A stretch of DNA of 64,000 nt, taken from NCBI GenBank assembly GCA_030949985.1, contig JAUZRX010000023.1, forward strand, positions 1 to 64,000, given 5' to 3'. Shown one piece after another: positions 1 to 10,796 of the stretch. A model generated the notes under the pieces. It was not told the origin of the DNA, searched no databases, and saw nothing but the letters and a program-made list of their open reading frames with translations. This DNA comes from Acidobacteriota bacterium (GTDB taxonomy: Bacteria; Acidobacteriota; Polarisedimenticolia; J045). How positions within the stretch are numbered: the first letter of the stretch is position 1; every line of letters starts with the position of its first letter. The position numbers and the translations under genes are program-made.

Positions 1-33
1 AAGAAAAGCGGGTGACCCGCAGGCCACCCGCTT
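1..33 (-). terminator. Rho-independent terminator of the RiPP cassette
   Basis: On the minus strand a 9-bp stem (AAGCGGGTG pairing with CACCCGCTT, bases 6-14 with 25-33) with a 10-base loop is followed directly by TTCTT, so the transcript ends in a U-rich run. It lies about 130 bases past the precursor stop codon. A T-rich stretch also follows the stem on the plus strand, so it could act in both directions. No other reading frame is evident between it and the peptide gene. Confidence 0.75.
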
Positions 34-163
34 CCCGTTTCTTTGGCGTGCACGCTAAAGAAGCTTCAGGGCCGTCGGTAACTCTCGTCACCGGCCACCG
101 GCCTGGGTTCGGCTCGGGGGCGCCGGCCTCGACCTCGCGACTCGACGCCGCGAGGTGGAGTCT

Positions 164-280
164 TCAGCTCTGGATCGGCCCAGCCTCGCAGGTAGCTGCA
201 TCAGCCTTGGCGCAGCCGACGGCACGGGCTTCGACCTTTTCCGCGTAGATCACGCGCGGCTTTTCGTAAGCCTTCTTCAT
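164..280 (-). CDS. Putative RiPP precursor peptide (38 aa)
   Basis: Small peptide gene placed last in the PqqD-like/radical SAM unit. The start is fixed by a perfect AGGAGG eight bases before the ATG; the frame ends at TGA. The N-terminal part is Lys/Glu-rich with YEKPR at residues 5-9, resembling the Y-x-x-P leader motifs bound by PqqD-type RRE domains. The C-terminal part has Cys23 and Cys31, Asp27, Gly34-Pro35 and a terminal Ser38 (ending GPIQS). The position, the ribosome site and the leader/core division support a ribosomally made peptide modified by the adjacent enzymes. Leader and core boundaries are inferred; Val21-Gly22 is a reasonable junction. No cleavage or export gene is in view, so the peptide could be matured by genes elsewhere. 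I recognise no named precursor family. Confidence 0.8.
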   Translation of the reverse strand: MKKAYEKPRVIYAEKVEARAVGCAKADAATCEAGPIQS

Positions 281-288
281 CGAGCTTT

Positions 289-294
289 CCTCCT
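289..294 (-). promoter_or_regulatory. Perfect Shine-Dalgarno of the precursor peptide
   Basis: AGGAGG on the minus strand, eight bases upstream of the ATG. It is stronger than the ribosome sites of the neighbouring pqqD-like and radical SAM genes and is the main evidence that this 38-codon frame is translated at a high level, as expected for a precursor relative to its modifying enzymes. Confidence 0.8.
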
Positions 295-312
295 CGTCGA
301 GGTTTCTGTTAC

Positions 313-373
313 CGGGAGTCACCCCGGCGGGTAAAACGTTGCTGGTTGCCGGGCCTGTCCGGAGCAGACCCGG
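313..373 (-). promoter_or_regulatory. Two intercistronic hairpins between radical SAM and precursor genes
   Basis: Two inverted repeats lie in the 121-base spacer. Bases 350-373 form CCGGG-x-CTG / CAG-x-CCCGG around a 7-base loop, and bases 313-328 form CCGGG / CCCGG around a 6-base loop. Neither is followed by a T-run. They could stabilise or process the mRNA so that the precursor message outlasts the enzyme message. That role is inference from position. Confidence 0.45.
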
Positions 374-401
374 TGCGGGTTGAGGTCAGGTCCCCCGTCA
401 T

Positions 402-1514
402 TTACGCCTTGTCAGGGCTTTGTGCAAGGGGATCTTCGTCATCCTTTTCCGCTTCCGCGGCATCCTCACCGCGCTGGCAGGCTTCGAAGGCCTCCAGCTT
501 GGTCAGCCCGGAGACCCGGGAGGCCTCGTAGAAGGCGTAGGGGTCGCCGGTTTCTTTCTCCGCCGCGGCAGGGCAAAACGAGGCGAAAGCTCCTTCCGGA
601 TGATGGATCAGGGTCTTCCTGGGGACCTCCTCGGCCACCTTGCGCACGTAGTCGAGCGTCTCGTTGGGTCCCGCTTGACCTTGCCAAAGGGCATTGAGGT
701 CTTCGACTTCCAGGATATTGGCAATGGGGCGGCGCCAGGCCACGCAGGGGAACATGTCGCCGTAGGGGTCGATGGTGATGGCGGTGCGTCCCACGCCGCA
801 GTTTTGCTTCATTTTCTCCACGGGCCGGGGCCTGAGGCCCCGACGGCCCCGCTGCACCTGGTCGACGAAAAAGCGCACCAGGAAGGTCCTGTCCGGGGCC
901 ATGCCCAGGGGGCCGAGATCGCCGTCATCGGCGGGAACGATGTTCGTATCGAAGGTGACGTGGTAGCCGAAACTCTCGCCGAGTTTCTCGATGGCGTGAA
1001 GCTGACCCTGGTTCAGACGCGTGATCGGAGTCTTGAGGGTGACCTTCACCCCCAGCGACGACAGCACCCCCAACGCTTCGAGCAGCTTGTCGAAGGAGCC
1101 CCTGATTCCCGTGAGGCGATCGTGGGTCGCGGCATCGGCCCCGTGGATGCTGATCTCGGTGTCGAAGGGGCCCAGTTCGGCGTAGCGGACCGCCCGCCGA
1201 CGATCGGTGAGAAGCACTCCGTTGGTGTAGGTCTTGAGGACCATGCCCCGCTCACGAATGCCCTCGCAGATCTGGAAGAAATCGCGGTGCACGAAAGGCT
1301 CCCCACCGGTCAACGTGACGGTGAAGGTGCCCGCCGCCTTGAGCTTGTCCACGGCGGCGATCCACTGCCGGCCGTCGAGTTCCCGTTTTTCCTTGGGATT
1401 GTTGTAGCAAAAGGAGCAGAGCAGATTGCACTTGTAGGTCAGTTCGAGCTGGGCGTTGATCGGGCGCGCCTGGTCGAAGGCGCTTTCGATCATGCGCGTC
1501 AGGGGGCTCGTCAA
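402..1514 (-). CDS. Radical SAM RiPP maturase with reduced SPASM/twitch-like C-terminus
   Basis: 370 aa. The cluster motif C29-x3-C33-x2-C36 binds the [4Fe-4S] that cleaves SAM, and GGEP at 70-73 contacts the SAM amino group. The C-terminal part has C239-x12-G-x4-C257, which matches the first half of the SPASM consensus, then single cysteines at 314 (FCPAA) and 346. The central CX2CX5CX3C block is missing. This suggests one auxiliary Fe-S cluster (twitch-like) rather than two. Family knowledge: such enzymes install C-C, thioether or other crosslinks, or epimerise residues, in precursor peptides. The gene lies 33 bases after the PqqD-like gene and just before the peptide gene, so the substrate is probably that peptide. 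The chemistry cannot be read from sequence. The last 25 residues are acidic and low-complexity. Confidence 0.88.
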   Translation of the reverse strand: MTSPLTRMIESAFDQARPINAQLELTYKCNLLCSFCYNNPKEKRELDGRQWIAAVDKLKAAGTFTVTLTGGEPFVHRDFFQICEGIRERGMVLKTYTNGVLLTDRRRAVRYAELGPFDTEISIHGADAATHDRLTGIRGSFDKLLEALGVLSSLGVKVTLKTPITRLNQGQLHAIEKLGESFGYHVTFDTNIVPADDGDLGPLGMAPDRTFLVRFFVDQVQRGRRGLRPRPVEKMKQNCGVGRTAITIDPYGDMFPCVAWRRPIANILEVEDLNALWQGQAGPNETLDYVRKVAEEVPRKTLIHHPEGAFASFCPAAAEKETGDPYAFYEASRVSGLTKLEAFEACQRGEDAAEAEKDDEDPLAQSPDKA

Positions 1515-1547
1515 GGGGGCCTCCGGTGGGTGCGGGCCGCTGCCGGA

Positions 1548-1874
1548 TCAGTCGGCCGGAAGATCGACGGTTTCCACGGCCTGCTCCCGGAGCAGGTCGG
1601 TGAGCACTTCCATCACGTCCCGCTCGACGTCCTCGAGGCTGGCTCCGTCGTATTCGTCCGCCAGGCGGCGGGCCAGTTGGCGAATCGTCGCGGGGCCCTC
1701 GCCGAGGACCTCCACCAGGCGCGCCCCCGTGTCGTTGAGCACGATCTGCATCGCGCTTTCGGGCACGACCAGCAAGCCATCGTCGCCGAAGCGTGTGAAC
1801 GCGGCGTTGCGCCGCCTCCGGAACGCAGTTTCGGGGGTCCATGCAGGGGATGTGGAAGTCGGATCTGGATTCAT
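1548..1874 (-). CDS. PqqD-like RiPP recognition element protein
   Basis: 108 aa, single-domain PqqD/RRE type. Residues about 35-105 show the typical pattern: a short beta region (LLVVPESAMQIVLNDTG), a Gly turn, then helices rich in Leu/Arg (TIRQLARRLADEY, DVMEVLTDLLRE). Such proteins bind the leader of a precursor peptide and deliver it to a radical SAM partner. It is the first gene of the cassette, just downstream of a good promoter. The N-terminal 30 residues are Pro/Ser/Thr/Arg-rich and probably disordered. An internal start is possible, but the ATG used lies at the expected distance from the promoter. The family is not PQQ-specific, and no pqqA, B, C or E genes are present. Confidence 0.85.
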   Translation of the reverse strand: MNPDPTSTSPAWTPETAFRRRRNAAFTRFGDDGLLVVPESAMQIVLNDTGARLVEVLGEGPATIRQLARRLADEYDGASLEDVERDVMEVLTDLLREQAVETVDLPAD

Positions 1875-1894
1875 GGGTTCACCATTCGACGCAG

Positions 1895-1923
1895 AGTATA
1901 CGGCGGCCCCCCGGGGGGGACAA
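1895..1923 (-). promoter_or_regulatory. Sigma70-type promoter of the RiPP cassette
   Basis: Minus strand: -35 TTGTCC, a 17-base spacer, and -10 TATACT, ending about 20 bases before the ATG of the PqqD-like gene. The spacer contains a C-run/G-run palindrome of about 6+6 bases, which could influence promoter geometry or act as a small operator. Transcription from here would cover all three cassette genes through to the terminator at the left edge. Confidence 0.6.
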
Positions 1924-1999
1924 TTGATACTGGAAACAAAATTCCACTATGGGCGAGCCTGAAGGCGGCCCGGGAGCCGGGCTTTTTCCCCGGTTCACC

Positions 2000-3826
2000 T
2001 TACTGGACATAGCCCAGGCTGCGCAGGCGCTCGAGGAGTCGGGCCTCGGCATGGACATCCCCCTCCCCTGTCCGCCGCACCTCGGCCCGGGTCAGTTCTT
2101 TCCGCAGGCGTTGGCCCTCGACCCCGGCAAGATCGGCCCGGGCCCGCCCGCTCATGCGGCTGTCCACCGGATAGCCGGCGGCCGCCAGCCAGGTCGGGGC
2201 GATGTCCTCGGCGACCGCCGCCGGGCTCCGGCCGGGCTTCCCGCGGGCCAGCAGGAACCAGCCCGGCCCGGCTGCCGGATTCCGGCCCGGGGCTCCCGCC
2301 ACGGCCAGCAGGTTCTCCGTCGAGGGGAGTCCGACGACCTGGGCGAGACGGGCGTCGATGCGCTCCACGTGAGACGCGACGGCTTCCAGCCGGCGGAAGG
2401 GGTCCACACCCTCCCGTCGAAGCCCCTCGCGCAGAATGTCCAGGCCCGGCAGGTAGATCGTGGCTACCGAGACCTCCGGGTCGCCGAGGGCTTCGGCCAG
2501 GGCCTCGAGCCGGAAGAGATCGACCCGCAACGCCAGGCGGGCGATTTCCCCGGGCAGGTCCGAACTGCCGCTGCGGGCGCGCTCGAGCCACCGGGCGGCC
2601 CGCGGGGCCCACCCCTCGGGGTAGATGGCCTGCTCGAGGCCCTCGCCCCCCTCGGCGGCCGGCAGGGCGCCGTCGGAGACCAGGTACCCCCCGGCGGGCC
2701 CGGGTCGGCCCGCCGGCCAGCTTCCCCACCAGCCGACGATCGCCGTTTTCTCCGCCTGGGCCGTGATTTCCCAGAAGGTCGGCAGGAGCCTGACCCCGGC
2801 CCGCACGGCCCGTGGACGGGTCGGCAGCAGTTTGACCAGCACTTCCAGGGGACCCGCCGCCAGCCCGCGGGCCACGGCGGGGGCTCGGGTTCCCCTGAGC
2901 CCCGGCACGGAGGCGCCCCGCACGCCGTGCCGGGCCGGCGGGCTGCCGGTGGCGATGGTGGTCCAGGTGGCAGCGGGATCCCCCGGCTGTTCGTCGGTGA
3001 TCGGCGCCAGTCGCCCCGCGGCCCGGCAGGCGGCGAGCCAGGGGCTGCGGCCGGAGCGGGTCAGGCCGTCGAGCAGCGGCAGATCCAGGCCGTCCCAGCC
3101 GATCAGCAGCGCCCGGGCCGGTGCGTGGGGACTGCGCACCACCGGGGCGCCGGCGGTCGCGGCGGATCCTCCCGGCAGGGTCGCCGCCACGGCCGCCACG
3201 GCCACCGAGGCCAGCGCCGCGGGCAGCAGCCAGCGCCCCCCCCGGGAACGGGCCTGCCGGGGAGCGCGCCCGGCGCCCAGCGCCGCCTGCACGAGGACCG
3301 CCGCCGAAAGAACCCGCCCCGAAAGTCCGGCTCCCAGTGCCAGGGCCGCCAGGGCCGCGAGATCGGCCGCCCCCAGCCGCCGCTCGCTGCCCGCCCACCA
3401 CAGGCCCAGGTAGAGCGCCACCATGACCGCCGCCCCCAGGCCCGTGACTTGGGACGCCCGCCACGGAGACAGTCCGCGCCGCCGGCGGGCCAGCAAGCGG
3501 ACGACCAGGGCGACGACCACTTCGGCCGAGGCCGCCAGCAGGGTGGCGAAGGGGGCGAAGAGCGCCGCGTAGAGCACGCCGTCGGGCCAGAGGGGAACCA
3601 GGCCCCGGGATTCCACCACCAGCGCCCCGGCCAGCAGGACCCCCACGGGGACTCCGGCGAACAGGCCCGACAGGCCGGCGATGCGCAGGACGGCCCCGAA
3701 ACGGTCCCGGCCGCCCCCCCCCGCATCGAGGAAGATCCTTTCGAGGGGTGTCTTCAGATAGCCACGTTCTTCGAGGGCGCGCCGCACCTGCGCGTAGTCC
3801 TCGCCGGGCCGGCCGGGGGAGGTCAC
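2000..3826 (-). CDS. Membrane protein with alkaline-phosphatase/phosphodiesterase fold, metal site degenerate
   Basis: 608 aa, GTG start overlapping the TGA of the polyprenyl synthase gene (GTGA). Residues about 45-230 contain several hydrophobic segments. The following soluble domain begins ALLIGWDGLD, like type I phosphodiesterases, with ATWTTIATG supplying the usual Thr nucleophile and ARHGVRG after it. The protein ends in LRSLGYV, a tail I associate with this superfamily in Acidobacteria and Myxobacteria. The later ligands are poor: the D-x3-H element reads LDILREG and the SDHG element is replaced by AVAGAPGRN. It may therefore be inactive or have altered metal binding. Earlier in-frame start codons lie inside the synthase gene and are unlikely. 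Confidence 0.65.
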   Translation of the reverse strand: MTSPGRPGEDYAQVRRALEERGYLKTPLERIFLDAGGGGRDRFGAVLRIAGLSGLFAGVPVGVLLAGALVVESRGLVPLWPDGVLYAALFAPFATLLAASAEVVVALVVRLLARRRRGLSPWRASQVTGLGAAVMVALYLGLWWAGSERRLGAADLAALAALALGAGLSGRVLSAAVLVQAALGAGRAPRQARSRGGRWLLPAALASVAVAAVAATLPGGSAATAGAPVVRSPHAPARALLIGWDGLDLPLLDGLTRSGRSPWLAACRAAGRLAPITDEQPGDPAATWTTIATGSPPARHGVRGASVPGLRGTRAPAVARGLAAGPLEVLVKLLPTRPRAVRAGVRLLPTFWEITAQAEKTAIVGWWGSWPAGRPGPAGGYLVSDGALPAAEGGEGLEQAIYPEGWAPRAARWLERARSGSSDLPGEIARLALRVDLFRLEALAEALGDPEVSVATIYLPGLDILREGLRREGVDPFRRLEAVASHVERIDARLAQVVGLPSTENLLAVAGAPGRNPAAGPGWFLLARGKPGRSPAAVAEDIAPTWLAAAGYPVDSRMSGRARADLAGVEGQRLRKELTRAEVRRTGEGDVHAEARLLERLRSLGYVQ

Positions 3827-4713
3827 TGGTCCCGCCGCCCGACGAAACGCGCGATGGCGACCAGGGGTTCGGCACGCTGCCCGAGGGCCGAGAGGCTCTC
3901 CACGGCGGTTTCCACCAGTTCCGCGGCCAGCCGCCGCGCGCCCTCGACGCCGGCGAAGGCGACGAAACTCGTGCCCGCGTGATCGTGGCCGACATCCTTG
4001 CCCGTCACCTGGGGGTCGCCGACCACGTCCAGCAGGTCGTCGGTGATCTGGAAGGCCAGACCGAGATTCTTGGCCCACGCCTCGAGGGCTGCCAGTTCCG
4101 CCGCGCCCGCACCCGATACGCGGCCCGCTTCGACCGCGCAGGCGATGAACAGGCTGCCCGTTTTCAGCGCGTGAATCCGCTCGAGTTCCGCCAGTTCCGG
4201 CGACTGGTCCCCGGCCGCCAGGTCCAGGGCCTCGCCCGCGATCATGCCGTCTTCGCCGACGGCGCCCGCCAGTGCCCGCACGGCCATCGAGCCGTCGTCG
4301 GGACCGATCCAGCGGGTGCGGGCGGCGCCGCCCAGGTGGCGATAGGCCGCGTTGAGCAGCCCCACGGCGGCGAGGATCGCCGTCGATTCTCCGAAGGCGA
4401 GATGGGCGGCCATCGCGCCTCGACGGCGTCGGGCATCGTCGAAGGAAGGCAGGTCGTCGAGAATCAGGGACGAGGCGTGAATCATCTCGGCGGCGACGGC
4501 CAGGGGCATCACGTGGCGCTGCCGGCCGCCGAGAACCTCCGAAACCGCCAGGCAGATGATGCCCCGCAGGCGCTTGGCCGGCAGCAGGAGGGTGTAGCGC
4601 ATGGCCTCGACCAGTCGTCCGGGGTCGGGATGGCGCGGTGGCAGGGCTTTTTCGATGGCCTGTTCGACCCGTTGCCTGCGCTGCTCGAGATAGCTGCCGA
4701 GGTCCACGCCCAT
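3823..4713 (-). CDS. Polyprenyl (farnesyl/geranylgeranyl) diphosphate synthase
   Basis: 296 aa. It condenses isopentenyl diphosphate with allylic diphosphates in the cytoplasm to feed quinone, undecaprenyl and other isoprenoid pathways. The first aspartate-rich motif is DDLPSFDD at 86-93 followed by RRRRG, and the second is DDLLD at 225-229. Both are intact, and the spacing and length fit the short-chain IspA-like branch. Chain length (C15 or C20) cannot be settled from sequence. A GTG two codons after the chosen ATG has a better-spaced GGAGAGG and is a plausible alternative start. It is translationally coupled to the phosphodiesterase-fold gene. Confidence 0.85.
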   Translation of the reverse strand: MGVDLGSYLEQRRQRVEQAIEKALPPRHPDPGRLVEAMRYTLLLPAKRLRGIICLAVSEVLGGRQRHVMPLAVAAEMIHASSLILDDLPSFDDARRRRGAMAAHLAFGESTAILAAVGLLNAAYRHLGGAARTRWIGPDDGSMAVRALAGAVGEDGMIAGEALDLAAGDQSPELAELERIHALKTGSLFIACAVEAGRVSGAGAAELAALEAWAKNLGLAFQITDDLLDVVGDPQVTGKDVGHDHAGTSFVAFAGVEGARRLAAELVETAVESLSALGQRAEPLVAIARFVGRRDQ

Positions 4714-4816
4714 CCTCTCCCACGGGAGGTCTGCTTCCCGGGGATCTTGTACTCCGCCCGGCTTCGGCGCCACCATCGACGTGCATCGAGGCCGGCCGAA
4801 ACCTACATTGGCGGAT

Positions 4817-6010
4817 GTGAAAGGCTGGACCGTGCGGCGGAGACAAACCGCGCTGGCGGTAATCATCACGATCGTGACCGTCGGTGCCGGGGTGGTTCTC
4901 TTCGGGCCTCGCCTCTACCAGGCGATGGCCAGGCAGTCTTCGAAATCGACCGAGCAGAATCGGCCCCTGCCGGTCTCACGCGACGCCTTCCGGCGCGGCC
5001 CGGGCGCGGACATTCTCGCCACCATGGAAAAAATCGACCGCACCAGCGTGCGGATCCGCGCCGACCGGGGCGGCGCCCTGGTTTCACCGGACGGGGCGGT
5101 GCGGCTCGAACTCCCTCCCCATGCCCTGGCTCACGACATGGATGTGGAGATCATCCGTTACGCGGTGACGGGCGACGACGTGATCGATGCGTTCGCCTAC
5201 GATCTTCAGCCCGATGGATTGCAGCTCAAGCGCCCGGCGCAGTTCAGCGTGGCCCTGCCGCCGGGCTTCCAGCCCGAGGAGGTCGAGGTCAGCGTCTACG
5301 ACCTGGCCCGCGCCGCGTGGGTCCGCGAGCCGGACCAGGAAGTGGCCGCGGGCGGCGATCGCCTGCTGGCCCGCCTGGCGCACTTCTCCCTGCGTCGCCT
5401 GCGGATCCGCCCCGGCCTGCGCTTTCCCTTCGAACCCCATCACGGACGGGCCACCTTCTACCTCGAGTCCGATGCCGGAAACAACTTCGAACGCTATCTC
5501 GAAGGGCGCTGGGCGGCCGTGCGGCGGCGCACCGGCACCTACCGCGAACTGATGCGCATGGGGCGTCTGAGCCGGATGAGCCTGATCACCAGCGGACGAC
5601 TGCGGGCCATCACCGCGGCGCGCCCGACCCCCACCGTCTTCCTAGACGAGCGGCGCACCGCCGCGATGCCCGCCGGCGCGCCGGAGGCGATCACCGGTTG
5701 GGTGCGCGTGCGTCGCCTCGATGCGCGAGGCCGGCCCACCGGCCAGGAGGTCGTCGTACGGGTCAACGACTACGGCCCCGGCCCCGCCCCCCGGCGGGCG
5801 GGGGTCATCATCGACCTCTCCCGCTCGGCCATGGAAGCCCTGGGCCTCGAGTGGGGCCGCGATTTCGGCCTGGCCGAAGACAACCCCGACCTGGCCTGGA
5901 TCCGGATCGATCCGGGTTCCGGGGAGGACCCGGTGCTGCACTATCTTCCGGTGGCGGTCGAGGCCTACCAGCCTCAGCCCCGTCGGGCTCCTTCCTGCCG
6001 CCTGTGGTAG
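4817..6010 (+). CDS. Membrane-anchored ZU5-like/RlpA-like (double-psi beta-barrel) protein
   Basis: About 397 aa from the GTG; an ATG 12 codons earlier is possible, and neither has a clear ribosome site. One hydrophobic segment (about residues 8-28) anchors it, leaving a periplasmic body. Residues about 80-190 read like a ZU5-type beta domain (DGAVRLELPPHAL pattern). Near the C-terminus VRVNDYGP...GVIIDLSRSAMEALGL matches the core of RlpA-type DPBB domains, which act on or bind denuded peptidoglycan glycan strands. The first half of the DPBB (the ASWYG segment) is not recognisable, so the domain is partial or divergent. It is followed after 30 bases by the HPr-kinase-like gene on the same strand. 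Confidence 0.55.
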   Translation: MKGWTVRRRQTALAVIITIVTVGAGVVLFGPRLYQAMARQSSKSTEQNRPLPVSRDAFRRGPGADILATMEKIDRTSVRIRADRGGALVSPDGAVRLELPPHALAHDMDVEIIRYAVTGDDVIDAFAYDLQPDGLQLKRPAQFSVALPPGFQPEEVEVSVYDLARAAWVREPDQEVAAGGDRLLARLAHFSLRRLRIRPGLRFPFEPHHGRATFYLESDAGNNFERYLEGRWAAVRRRTGTYRELMRMGRLSRMSLITSGRLRAITAARPTPTVFLDERRTAAMPAGAPEAITGWVRVRRLDARGRPTGQEVVVRVNDYGPGPAPRRAGVIIDLSRSAMEALGLEWGRDFGLAEDNPDLAWIRIDPGSGEDPVLHYLPVAVEAYQPQPRRAPSCRLW

Positions 6011-6040
6011 GATCCCTGCCCCTCAACCACGGGTGGCCGG

Positions 6041-6946
6041 ATGAGCGAAATCGACCCGCGCAGATTCACCACTTCACACGGCAGCGACGAACAGGTTCCG
6101 CCGGGGAAGGTGGACGTCGACCTCCAACTCGGTCCGCTGCGGGTGCGCTTGCTGGGCCTGCCCACCAGCTACGAGCCCTTCGTCGCCGAACACTACGACC
6201 CTTTCTGCGAGCCGGCGGACCCCACCCGGGAAGCCGACCTGGAAGTGGCTTGCCGGGAAGTGCCCGAAAAGATCGTCATCCCCCTGCCGCCCCCCGGCGG
6301 CGGGACGGTGCTCGAACTGCACGACGAGGGGGACGGCCGCTACCGCATCTGTTCCCATTGGCAGGATGGTGAGGTTCGGCCCGGGGAGGGGCGTGGCGAG
6401 GTGGTGCTCTCCAGCCGGGCCTACATCCCCTTCCGCATGTCCCTCGAGAACTACCTGCGGATCGCCTCCCAGTTGATGCTGATCGACCGGGGCGGTTTCC
6501 TGATGCACACGGCGGGGATCCTCGATGCCGGCCGGTGCTATCTCTTCTTCGGGCCCTCCGGCGCGGGCAAATCCACCGCCACGGCCAATTCGGCGCCTCG
6601 TGCCGCCCTTTCGGACGACATGGTTCTGATCGACGTCTCGGGAGAGGTGCCCAAGGCCCACGCGGTGCCGTTCTTCGGCGCCTTCCCGCCCCGAAAGCGG
6701 GTGCGGGGCGCGTTTCCGATCGCGGTGGCCTGCCGCCTGCGCCAGTCCCCCGACACGCGTATCGAGCGTCTGCCGGCGGCCCGTGCGGTGGCGACCATCT
6801 CCGCCAGCGTGCCCTTCGTCCATGAACTGGGGTTGCCCCACGAGGGCCTGACCGAGCGTGTCACGCGCCTGTGCGCGGCGGTACCCGTCTGCGATCTTCA
6901 TCTCACCCGCAGCCCCGACTTCTGGAACCTCCTCGGGGACTTCTAA
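6041..6946 (+). CDS. HPr kinase/phosphorylase-like ATPase (HprK C-terminal-domain homologue)
   Basis: 301 aa. Walker A GPSGAGKST lies near residue 170, followed by LSDDMVLID and a VPFFGAFPPR segment typical of HprK-like proteins. The N-terminal 130 residues are not the classical HPrK domain. Family knowledge: such stand-alone kinases occur in many RiPP loci, and one from the paeninodin lasso cluster phosphorylates a C-terminal Ser of its precursor. Here the RiPP cassette lies about 4 kb away on the other strand and its peptide ends in Ser. A link is possible but unproven. HPr itself is not encoded here. The gene converges on uvrC with a 4-base overlap at the stop codons. Confidence 0.7.
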   Translation: MSEIDPRRFTTSHGSDEQVPPGKVDVDLQLGPLRVRLLGLPTSYEPFVAEHYDPFCEPADPTREADLEVACREVPEKIVIPLPPPGGGTVLELHDEGDGRYRICSHWQDGEVRPGEGRGEVVLSSRAYIPFRMSLENYLRIASQLMLIDRGGFLMHTAGILDAGRCYLFFGPSGAGKSTATANSAPRAALSDDMVLIDVSGEVPKAHAVPFFGAFPPRKRVRGAFPIAVACRLRQSPDTRIERLPAARAVATISASVPFVHELGLPHEGLTERVTRLCAAVPVCDLHLTRSPDFWNLLGDF

Positions 6947-8775
6947 CCTTTCGAGGGTCGCCGGCGACCGGATCCCGCGTCGCCGGCGTCGAGGGCTTCC
7001 CGCAGCCGCCGGGCCCGGACCGGTCCGATGGCCCCGCTCAAGGCCTCGAGGGAAGCTTCCCGTACGGCACGGACCGAGCCGAACTGCTCGAGCAGTCGCC
7101 GCGCGGTGACCGGCCCGACTCCCGGCACTTCGGTCAGCTCACTCTTCAGGCGGCTCCGGCGGCGGGCCTTGCGGTGGTGGTGGAGGGCGAAACGGTGGGC
7201 CTCGTCGCGCACCTGCTGGAGCAGGCGCAGCGCCGGTTCCGCCCGATCGAGCAGCAGGGGGGCCGCCTGGTCGGGGAGGAAGATCTCTTCCTCCCGCTTG
7301 GCCAGTCCCGCTGCGGCCAGGGAATCGAGCCCCAGTTCGCTCAGCGCCTGGCGAGCCGCCGCGAGCTGACCGCGCCCGCCGTCGATCAGCACCAGGTCGG
7401 GCAGCCGGCGGCCTTCCCGCAGCAGCCGCCCGTAACGCCGCCGAACCACTTCCCGCAGGGCCTGGTAGTCGTCGCCTCCGACCGCGGTCCGGATTGCGTA
7501 GATGCGGTAGTCCGCCTTTTTCGGCCGGCCGCCCTCGAAGACGACCATCGAGGCCCGGGGCGCTTCTCCCTGGAAATGGCTGATGTCGAAGCCCTCGATG
7601 CGGAAGGGCGCGGCATCCAGGCCGAGCAGGTCCCGCAGGCCCTCGATCGCCTGCACGCCGTGGGCGTGGGGCGAACGGAAGCGCGCTTCGAAGAGCATCT
7701 TGGCGTTGGCCGAGACCAGGTCGAGAAAACGTCGACGCTCTCCGCTGCGCACGGCGGCCAGGCGCACCCGGTGACCGGCGCGGTGGTCCAGGAAACGCTC
7801 GATCAGCTGCCGGTCCGCCGGAAAGCGCGGCAGGACGATCTCCCGGGGCACCTCCTGGTCGGCGTAGAAGCGGGCCAGCAGCAGGTCGTAGAAGCTCTCG
7901 GGCGGAGGCGCCGGATCGAAGGTGAACTCCCGGCGTCCGATCACCCTCCCGCCCCGCATGCGGAACAGCTCCACCGCGGCCTGGTCGCGGACCCGATACT
8001 CCGACCAGAAATCGATGTCTTCGAGTCCCACCGAGGTCATCTGCGGGCGGGAAGCGAGACTCTCGATGGAGGCGATCATGTCCCGCAGTCGCGCCGCCCG
8101 TTCGAAGGCCAGCTCGGCGCTGGCCGCCTCCATCTGGCGCCGCAGAACCGCCACAAGCTCTTCGTTGCGTCCTTCGAGAAAGAGCTTGGCCTCCTCGACC
8201 CGCGCCGCGTACTCGGCCGGATCGGCCTTGCCCGCGCAGGGCGCCAGGCACTGGTCCAGGTGGTAGTAGAGGCACGGTCGCTGGCGTCCGTCGAAGGGCA
8301 GGTGGCAATTGGCGACCTGGAAGAAGCGGGGAATCAGGCGCAGGGTGCGTCGCGCGTGGGACGCGGGCAGGAAGGGCCCGTAGGTCGGATCCTTGCCGGC
8401 CCGCGGTCGTCGTACCAACTGGACCCGGGGAAAGGCTTCGCTGGTGGTCAGGCGCAGGTAGGGGAAGCTCTTGTCATCCCTCAGCAGCACGTTGTAACGC
8501 GGGCGGTGCTCCTTGATCAGGTTGTTTTCCAGGATCAGCGCCTCGACCTCGCTGGAAGTGAGGATCAGGTCCAGGTCCCTGATCTCGGCCACCAGCGCCA
8601 GGGTGCGGGGCGGATGCTGAGCGGAGGGCTGGAAGTAGGAGCGCACCCGGGCACGGAGGGACTTGGCCTTGCCGACGTAGAGCACCCTGCCCTTCCCGTC
8701 CAGAAAGCGGTAGCAGCCCGGACTGTCCGGCAGCCGTGCCAGCTTCTGCTCCAACTCGGGGGACAAGGGTTTCAT
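6943..8775 (-). CDS. uvrC: UvrABC system protein C (excinuclease subunit)
   Basis: 610 aa, full length. It makes the 3' and 5' incisions around UvrB-bound lesions in nucleotide excision repair. The N-terminal GIY-YIG nuclease domain is present (GCYRFLDGKG...VLYVGKAKSLRARVRSYF pattern), then a UVR region around residue 200 (ELAFERAARLRDMI), the RNase H-like domain (FDISHFQGE, LVLIDGG) and a C-terminal helix-hairpin-helix (VPGVGPVTARRLLEQFG). It is the last gene of a lysK-uvrB-uvrC run, 20 bases after uvrB. Confidence 0.96.
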   Translation of the reverse strand: MKPLSPELEQKLARLPDSPGCYRFLDGKGRVLYVGKAKSLRARVRSYFQPSAQHPPRTLALVAEIRDLDLILTSSEVEALILENNLIKEHRPRYNVLLRDDKSFPYLRLTTSEAFPRVQLVRRPRAGKDPTYGPFLPASHARRTLRLIPRFFQVANCHLPFDGRQRPCLYYHLDQCLAPCAGKADPAEYAARVEEAKLFLEGRNEELVAVLRRQMEAASAELAFERAARLRDMIASIESLASRPQMTSVGLEDIDFWSEYRVRDQAAVELFRMRGGRVIGRREFTFDPAPPPESFYDLLLARFYADQEVPREIVLPRFPADRQLIERFLDHRAGHRVRLAAVRSGERRRFLDLVSANAKMLFEARFRSPHAHGVQAIEGLRDLLGLDAAPFRIEGFDISHFQGEAPRASMVVFEGGRPKKADYRIYAIRTAVGGDDYQALREVVRRRYGRLLREGRRLPDLVLIDGGRGQLAAARQALSELGLDSLAAAGLAKREEEIFLPDQAAPLLLDRAEPALRLLQQVRDEAHRFALHHHRKARRRSRLKSELTEVPGVGPVTARRLLEQFGSVRAVREASLEALSGAIGPVRARRLREALDAGDAGSGRRRPSKG

Positions 8776-8795
8776 CGTTTCCTGCTCGCGATTCC

Positions 8796-10796
8796 TCAGC
8801 GCGGCGCCAGGGCTTCTTTCTCGCGCAGTGCCCGGATCCGGTCACGCAACTCCGCGGCCTTCTCGAACTCCATCTTGGAGGCCGCCTCGAACATGTCCCG
8901 CTCCAGTTCCCCGATGGTGCGTACGATCTCCTCGAAGGTCATCGGAGCCCCGTCTTCGGTGGTGGAGGGAACCGTCAGGTAGTCCTTCTCGTAGACCGAC
9001 CCCAGGACTTCATCGATGCGCTTGACGATCGAAGCCGGGGTGATGCCCATCTTCTCGTTCCAGGCCTTCTGGCGCCGGCGTCGGCGTTCGGTCTCGTCGA
9101 TCGCCTGGCGCAGGGCGGGGGTGATCCGGTCGGCGTAGAGGATCACCTTGCCCTCGACGTTGCGGGCCGCGCGGCCGATGGTCTGGATCAGCGCGGTCGC
9201 CGAGCGCAGGTAGCCCTGCTTGTCCGCGTCGAGTACCGCCACCAGGGAGACCTCCGGCAGGTCCAGGCCCTCGCGCAGCAGGTTGACCCCCACCAGCACG
9301 TCGAACTCCCCCGCCCGCAGGTCCCGCAAGATCCGGATCCGGTCGAGGGTCTGCACGTCCGAGTGCAGGTACTCCACCCGAACCCTGTTGTCGCGGAAAT
9401 GCTCGGTGAGTTCTTCGGCCATGCGCTTGGTCAGCGTGGTGACCAGTACCCTCTCGTTGCGTTCCGCGCGGGCGCGCGCCTCGCCCAGCAGATCGTCCAC
9501 CTGCCCTTCGACCGGGCGTAGGATCAACTCCGGGTCGAGCAGGCCCGTGGGCCGCACCACCTGTTCGGCGATTTCCCCACCGGTGAGGTTCAGCTCGTAC
9601 TCCGCGGGGGTGGCTGAGACGAAGATCGTCCGCGGGCGGATCGCTTCCCACTCCTCGAAGGTCAGCGGCCGGTTGTCCATCGCCGAGGGCAGGCGGAACC
9701 CCCATTCCACCAGGGTCTGCTTGCGCGAGCGATCGCCGCGGTACATGGCCCGCACCTGGGGCACCGTCTGGTGGGATTCGTCCACCACCAGCAGGGCGTC
9801 GGGAGGCAGGTAGTCCATCAGCGTGGGAGGAGGCTGCCCCGGCCGGCGGCCGGTGAGGTGCCGGGAGTAGTTCTCGATGCCGTGGCAGTAGCCGGCCTCC
9901 TGGATCATCTCCAGGTCGAATTGGGTGCGCTGGCTCAGGCGCTGGGCCTCGAGCCGCTTGCCCAGGGCGTGCAGCTCGGCCACCCGCGCGTCGAGTTCTT
10001 CGCGGATCGAGCGCATCGCTTCGACCAGCTTTTCCCGGGGTGTGACGTAGTGCGAGTTGGGATACACCGGGAAACGTTCGACTTCTTCGACGGTGACCGC
10101 CCGCAGGGGATCGATGCGCCGCACCCGGTCGATCTCGTCGCCGAAGAACTCCACCCGCAGGGCCGTGTCGTCGTAGGCCGGCCAGATGTCCACCGTATCG
10201 CCCCGCACCCGGAAGGAACCGGGTCGCAGGTCGCCCCCGCTGCGCTGGTACTGGATCTCCACCAGCCGCCGCAGCAGGTGATCCCGGCCTTCCCGCGCGC
10301 CCCGCTCGAGCAGGAGCATCATGCCGTGGTAGGCCTCGGGGGAGCCCAGTCCGTAGATGCAGGAGACCGAGGCGACGATGATCACGTCCCGGCGTTCGAA
10401 AAGCTGCCGCGTGGCCGAATGGCGCATGCGGTCGATCTCCTCGTTGATCGTCGCTTCCTTCTCGATGTAGACGTCCGACTGGGGGATGTAGGCCTCGGGC
10501 TGGTAGTAGTCGTAGTAGGAGACGAAATACTCCACGGCGTTGTGCGGGAAGAACGAGCGAAATTCCTGGTAGAGCTGGGCGGCGAGGGTCTTGTTGTGGG
10601 CCATGACCAGGGTCGGCACCTGGCAGCGCTGGATGACCTGGGCGATGGTGAAGGTCTTGCCGGAGCCGGTGACCCCCAGCAGCACCTGGTCGCGCAAGCC
10701 CTGTTCGAGTCCGCGGCAGAGCTGGTCGATGGCCGCGGGCTGATCCCCCGCGGGTTCGAAGTCGGAGACGATACGGAAACCGGCCTGCCGGCTCAT
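8796..10796 (-). CDS. uvrB: UvrABC system protein B
   Basis: 666 aa, the usual length. It is the DNA-damage-verifying helicase-like subunit that accepts DNA from UvrA and recruits UvrC. Walker A is [10 protein letters not shown] near residue 43. The beta-hairpin region ([12 protein letters not shown]), helicase motifs V/VI ([23 protein letters not shown]) and a C-terminal UVR motif ([14 protein letters not shown]) that pairs with UvrC are all present. It sits directly upstream of uvrC, so the two incision partners are co-transcribed. uvrA is not in the window. Confidence 0.97.

Follow-up and report, generated by a model that had tools for sequence, protein, structure and literature searches.

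A conserved Acidobacteriota gene set joining an RRE, a radical SAM enzyme and probably an HprK-like kinase to a 38-residue precursor peptide

Several described systems bear on the locus considered in this study. GeoRSP pairs a PqqD-like protein with a SPASM-type radical SAM enzyme. SkfB is a twitch enzyme that forms thioethers (PMC6231123). RiPP recognition elements (RREs) of the lasso type recognize a [Y/W]xxP motif in the leader of their precursors, and discrimination between Y and W leaders by RREs has been demonstrated for Bacillota (PMC13381572). Kinases with an H-K-D-D set of residues phosphorylate the C-terminal serine of lasso precursors (PMC9266682). The locus examined here comes from a 64,000-nucleotide stretch of an Acidobacteriota genome (GenBank assembly GCA_030949985.1, contig JAUZRX010000023.1), which I will call the window and which starts at base 1 of its contig (C23).

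Within 1.9 kb of the minus strand lie a promoter-like site, genes for a PqqD-type RRE and a twitch-type radical SAM enzyme, a gene for a 38-amino acid peptide, and a terminator (Table 1). An earlier note, made from the sequence alone, had listed a promoter, a PqqD-like gene, a radical SAM gene, a 38-codon gene preceded by AGGAGG, and a terminator, and all of these were found, on one strand. The promoter-like site is the only one in positions 1-2200, where shuffled sequences give 0.1. The TTG start of the radical SAM gene is preceded by GGAGG. Folding of the final 60 nt (window 1-60) yields -34 kcal/mol (z -5.4), and the terminator hairpin lies inside 1-36. Since the window begins where the contig begins, it is the assembly, not biology, that truncates the cassette on its downstream side.

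Table 1. Features of the window in and around the cassette. Positions are those of the window.
Feature	Position	Strand	Remarks
Intrinsic terminator, 3' of precursor gene	1..36	-	Within the 141-bp overlap with contig C18
24-bp palindrome TTCTTTGGCGTGCACGCTAAAGAA	39..62	.	Between precursor and terminator
Precursor peptide gene MKKAYEKPRVIYAEKVEARAVGCAKADAATCEAGPIQS, 38 codons	164..280	-	Leader YxxP, two-Cys core, C-terminal Ser
Shine-Dalgarno AGGAGG of precursor gene	289..294	-	Read from sequence
Radical SAM peptide maturase, 370 aa	402..1514	-	TTG start; twitch-type auxiliary domain; PF04055 E 3e-20
Discrete RiPP recognition element (PqqD family), 108 aa	1548..1874	-	Pfam PF05402 E 1.6e-10, above cut-off
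Sigma-70-like promoter TTGTCC-N17-TATACT	1895..1923	-	5' of RRE gene; 9/12 matches
Alkaline-phosphatase/phosphodiesterase-superfamily membrane protein	1998..3826	-	Weak PF01663 in a homologue; conserved upstream neighbour
Polyprenyl diphosphate synthase	3823..4707	-	PF00348 E 1e-42; cluster 9, 19/46 loci
HprK-like kinase	6041..6946	+	Start 6041 or 6110 (uncertain); displaced homologue of the kinase preceding the RRE in relatives

The palindrome at 39-62 has a counterpart at the same position in close relatives. It is a single site in its genome, with no other copy when up to 3 mismatches are allowed, and a genome-wide repeat is thereby ruled out. Its centre is TGCA, and the flanking bases co-vary among the relatives (GCGTGCACGC, GCATGCATGC, GTGTGCACAC). 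Candidate readings are an operator or an RNA hairpin, with no role assigned.

The 38-amino acid peptide is encoded by a real gene. The frame was found by tblastn in 38 of 60 related genomes, with a best E-value outside its own genome of 9e-19, and among six close relatives the gene shows pS of 0.63 and pN of 0.09 (pN/pS 0.14). Matches in relatives and purifying selection together make a chance frame untenable. Its distribution was assessed in 149 Acidobacteriota genomes, evenly sampled and at least 90% complete, with a threshold of E<1e-90 for the cognate radical SAM enzyme. The peptide profile matches 33 of the 149: all 26 that carry the cognate enzyme and 7 of the 123 that lack it (Fisher 5e-23). 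One of these seven (G007) has a radical SAM gene broken by a contig end, and others hold a weaker radical SAM homologue. The peptide thus recurs beside the RRE and radical SAM pair across Acidobacteriota, with leader and core conserved, which is what the earlier note had named as support for its proposal of a RiPP-type pathway. That proposal is borne out, in that an encoded precursor is kept next to modifying enzymes.

The precursor consensus is MKKxYEKPAIIHTEKxEARAVxCxKADxxxCxxGPIQS. Y5, P8, A20 and C23 are invariant, and K3, E14, E17, R19, P35 and S38 nearly so. YxxP is present in 52 of 53 first-system precursors; the exception (L189) may have been truncated by the gene caller. Exactly two cysteines follow the motif in 51 of the 52. 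Of 53 distinct precursors, a set that includes distant ones with an unrelated core, 49 end in Ser and two in Thr. One of the remaining two (L073) ends in Phe and comes from a genome (G013) where both the radical SAM enzyme and the kinase are absent at the thresholds used. The terminal Ser is the sole conserved hydroxyl residue of the core. A core that hardly varies points to a single conserved product, a signal or a cofactor-like compound, and away from an antibiotic that diversifies. Core length and composition do differ in distant members.

The RRE has as its nearest solved structures RREs of the PqqD family and of lasso systems (9x8z, TbiB1, TfuB1), and by analogy with the latter it is predicted to bind the YxxP leader. 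The radical SAM protein carries the motif CNLLCSFC (CX3CX2C). The cysteines of this motif (C29, C33 and C36) are invariant across 12 aligned relatives, as are C239, C257 and C314, which fall in a twitch-like C-terminal region; the protein thus appears to have both the CX3CX2C motif and the C-terminal auxiliary cysteines expected of SPASM/twitch maturases. The closest fold to its AlphaFold model (pLDDT 88) is SkfB, followed by SuiB and then by CteB-type and PqqE structures, and a sequence search also puts SkfB (6efn) first, at 6e-30. Because SkfB is nearest by both measures and forms thioethers, a crosslink through cysteine is the leading guess for the chemistry: by this analogy the enzyme most plausibly crosslinks the two-Cys core through a Cys, by a thioether or some other bond. 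The auxiliary domain has only three conserved Cys, so the sequence does not disclose the reaction.

To describe the surroundings of the genes, contigs were scanned for loci with a radical SAM alignment, and neighbourhood gene maps were built with a codon model; in this GC-rich DNA, maps of the longest ORFs gave false long ORFs. The conserved order is kinase, RRE, radical SAM enzyme, peptide, C25 peptidase and ECF sigma factor. Neighbours were counted at 46 radical SAM loci, some of which are duplicates of one genome. The sigma factor usually follows the peptidase (cluster 5, 25 of 46), and the alkaline-phosphatase-superfamily protein (cluster 4) occurs at 26. The polyprenyl diphosphate synthase is probably a syntenic neighbour outside the pathway. 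Synteny of window 1995-10796 extends to other Acidobacteriota, where uvrB, uvrC, the HprK-like kinase, the polyprenyl synthase and the alkaline-phosphatase-superfamily membrane protein lie near the RRE. No conserved exporter was seen in the YxxP clusters. A distinct arrangement, type B, was observed at five loci (L156, L157, L158, L159 and L160), in which 12-16 kb separate the precursor from the radical SAM gene ahead of it. The precursor there lies behind genes for the C25 peptidase, the ECF sigma factor, FG-GAP and other secreted proteins, and immediately after a secreted-protein gene whose product ends in Phe.

The peptide gene of relatives (in type-B clusters, the radical SAM gene) is usually followed by a gene for a protein of about 1450 amino acids. 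This protein starts with what looks like a signal peptide and contains fibronectin type III domains and a C25 domain (E 4e-49 in L037). A catalytic-type His and Cys (H903 and C942 of L048) are invariant in 21 aligned C25 sequences. This gene lies beyond the edge of the window, but the 141 bases that open the window also close contig C18, without a mismatch and with no further copy in the genome, and on C18 a gene for a C25 (gingipain-family) peptidase is found about 470 nt 3' of the peptide gene, on the same strand. Contig C12, which starts inside a C25 gene, was also considered as the continuation and was ruled out, having no sequence overlap with the window; only C18 overlaps. Given the unique overlap of C23 with C18, the genome most likely shares the common order of peptide followed by peptidase. 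The peptidase is a candidate for removing the leader or for final processing. A gingipain-type cut after Arg19 was favored at first and then downgraded, since three precursors (L072, L180 and L182) have another residue in place of Arg19 and still lie beside a C25 gene. In two genomes, G003 (complete) and G006, the peptide and C25 genes are not neighbours. In a distant Acidobacteriota genome (G048) Peptidase_C25 matched 17 times, and the cognate radical SAM enzyme is absent at the threshold used.

The other enzyme encoded outside the 1.9 kb is the kinase. In many families a gene for a P-loop protein directly precedes the RRE, with a 4-bp overlap in L156. In the window its homologue lies between uvrC and a gene for a DPBB-domain protein, 4 kb from the RRE and on the opposite strand. 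Its model (pLDDT 86) has the PEPCK/HprK fold, and it matches the ScmC and HprK-related kinase models, below their cut-offs. H156, K177, D192 and D193 are invariant, and so the protein, as far as sequence and model can tell, has the H-K-D-D set within an HprK-like fold that characterizes lasso-type kinases of C-terminal Ser. Each of the 26 genomes that encode the cognate radical SAM enzyme also has a member of this kinase family (E<=1e-15). A broken kinase was suspected in one genome (G015), whose precursor ends in Thr and where a stop was flagged, and was ruled out: the kinase is intact, at 322 aa. With the kinase present in every such genome, its H-K-D-D residues kept, and the terminal Ser the only conserved hydroxyl of the core, the best-supported second modification is phosphorylation of S38; by analogy with the lasso kinases, this enzyme would be the one to carry it out. 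The kinase very likely belongs to the cassette, and the C25 peptidase probably does. The earlier note's description of the cassette as compact, complete and self-contained therefore fails, since the kinase lies outside the interval it described and the peptidase even outside the window.

The genome encodes a second, paralogous set. On contig C15 (L055 4987-11130, G000) are found a radical SAM enzyme, a kinase, the precursor MSATQNEKKKTWIRPAIEWEEDYEPVVFAASCTSEAFNCGGGAHS, with core FAASCTSEAFNCGGGAHS, and an RRE. Such precursors were read in five genomes (G000, G002, G006, G009 and G010), and their leader has WxxP in place of YxxP. They end in HS, RD, RG, R and RL, so that the terminal Ser is not kept though the kinase is. 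The split between Y and W leaders parallels the discrimination by RREs in Bacillota, and the two pathways are accordingly predicted not to cross. Contig C15 also carries an orphan precursor of the first type (L047 9974-10087; G000:C15:49973-50086), which has no enzyme set adjoining and may be modified in trans.

The reading that I favor, with a probability of roughly 0.6, is that of a conserved Acidobacteriota RiPP pathway. The RRE would bind the YxxP leader and present the precursor to the twitch-domain radical SAM enzyme, which would modify the two-Cys core, most plausibly through a Cys thioether or other crosslink; the HprK-like kinase would phosphorylate the C-terminal Ser; and the exported C25 peptidase, encoded off the contig end, may remove the leader or complete the processing. 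Weighing against it are the absence of a conserved exporter, the loss of Arg19 from some precursors, the unlinked C25 genes of G003 and G006, and two facts concerning the kinase: its distant and divergent position next to uvrC, and the WxxP system, which keeps its kinase without a conserved terminal Ser. Because of the last, the link between kinase and serine is not proven. The position of the kinase could also mean that only the radical SAM enzyme acts on the peptide, the terminal Ser staying unmodified and the kinase serving a role linked to uvrBC or the WxxP system. Kinase paralogues do adjoin uvrB or uvrC in several families, and in the genome's second system a separate kinase adjoins the radical SAM gene. 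I consider this unlikely, however, in view of the kinase gene that directly precedes the RRE in many families, its occurrence in every pathway genome, and the terminal Ser as the one hydroxyl that the core conserves.

Another view puts the C25 peptidase and the secreted proteins encoded after it at the centre: they would form the actual system, a locus for cell-surface maturation controlled by the ECF sigma factor, and the modified peptide would be its regulator or ligand instead of a natural product for secretion. The sigma factor at 25 loci, with secreted proteins after it, would fit, as would the type-B peptides that come right after a secreted-protein gene, far from the radical SAM gene. 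In structure the C25 domain comes nearest, if weakly, to the sortase PorU, and the orphan precursor adjoins genes for REC (response-regulator), EAL and PAS-histidine-kinase proteins, a context repeated in G001 and G008. The peptide nevertheless has no direct link to the sigma factor or the peptidase, the latter being unlinked in G003 and G006, and distant members of the family (L183-L185) have neither C25 nor sigma gene nearby; I regard this possibility as rather doubtful. Least probable, and indeed quite improbable, is that the set makes a small redox cofactor derived from the peptide, as with PQQ and mycofactocin, the core being excised and degraded. The highly conserved core and the layout of RRE, radical SAM enzyme and short peptide are what such a pathway would have, and the mycofactocin and PqqE models are among the best NCBIfam matches of the radical SAM protein, at 100 and 85 bits. 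These scores are far under the cut-offs (265 and 381), however, no precursor match like PqqA or MftA was obtained, inspection of the neighbourhood recognized no genes like pqqB, pqqC, pqqF or mftE, and the core is variable in its more distant members.

Returning to the favored RiPP pathway, its precursor family has been kept across much of a phylum whose members are mostly uncultured, and annotation pipelines miss it because neither Pfam nor NCBIfam has a model: the window's own peptide found no match in either, and members of the family found no credible match in NCBIfam (best E 0.23). If the reading is true, a single small precursor would be acted on by both a radical SAM maturase and an HprK-type peptide kinase, two RiPP chemistries brought together; none of the papers found describes such a pairing. 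YxxP and WxxP systems within one genome let the leader-discrimination model from Bacillota (PMC13381572) be tested independently, by a natural example outside that phylum, and all the parts are short enough for joint expression. One may go further and imagine a RiPP family spanning the phylum, with a two-Cys core modified by the radical SAM enzyme and a phosphorylated C-terminal Ser, several genomes running two pathways kept separate by their YxxP and WxxP leaders, and the product a conserved signal or cofactor matured by the exported C25 peptidase. This more extended view is less likely than not.

How does the gene set compare with known systems? All scores against the curated models are under the cut-offs: 84.6 of 381 bits for PqqE and 20.5 of 46 for PqqD, 100.6 of 265 for mycofactocin MftC, 26.6 of 125 for ScmC of SynChlorMet, 81.5 and 82.6 of 400 for ScmE/ScmF, 96.3 of 400 for the GeoRSP radical SAM enzyme (TIGR04303) and 65.9 of 300 for the SkfB sactipeptide enzyme (TIGR04403). 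Membership in PQQ, mycofactocin, GeoRSP, SkfB and SynChlorMet families was rejected on these grounds, and that of a lasso peptide because the whole genome has no B2 leader peptidase (PF13471). The earlier note had placed the peptide outside PQQ, mycofactocin and lasso systems, and there it stays. By its sequence matches, then, the set of RRE, twitch radical SAM enzyme and HprK-like kinase is outside every curated family tested. The set is apparently undescribed: in the papers found on SynChlorMet, on C25 with radical SAM and on HprK with radical SAM, no account of an RRE/radical SAM/kinase system was found.

The resemblances are nonetheless instructive. For GeoRSP, no partner is recognized here. 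SynChlorMet is closer, in that the HprK-like ScmC is paired with radical SAM/SPASM proteins, and the window's kinase and radical SAM enzyme match ScmC, ScmE and ScmF; it differs in that most clusters here have a single radical SAM gene, and the precursor lacks an NCBIfam match. One locus (L180 1613-6741, G079) has a precursor preceded by two radical SAM genes in tandem and by the kinase gene in three copies, a layout nearer to that of the SynChlorMet cassette. SkfB with SkfA shares the twitch domain and, as predicted for the present set, the RRE-guided modification of a Cys peptide (PMC6231123), and among solved radical SAM enzymes SkfB comes closest in both sequence and fold. In contrast to SkfB, the RRE here is separate rather than fused, the precursor is unrelated, and a kinase is present. 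Finally, with respect to the phosphorylated lasso peptides of the paeninodin type (PadeK/ThcoK) and the linear polyphosphorylated peptides (LPP), the set differs in having no B2, in a radical SAM enzyme that takes the place of the macrolactam synthase, and in a leader that diverges beyond YxxP. What it has in common with them is the YxxP/WxxP leader, the discrete PqqD-type RRE and the HprK-like kinase with its H-K-D-D residues, and the phosphorylated lasso case, like the precursor here, also has a C-terminal Ser (PMC9266682, PMC13381572).
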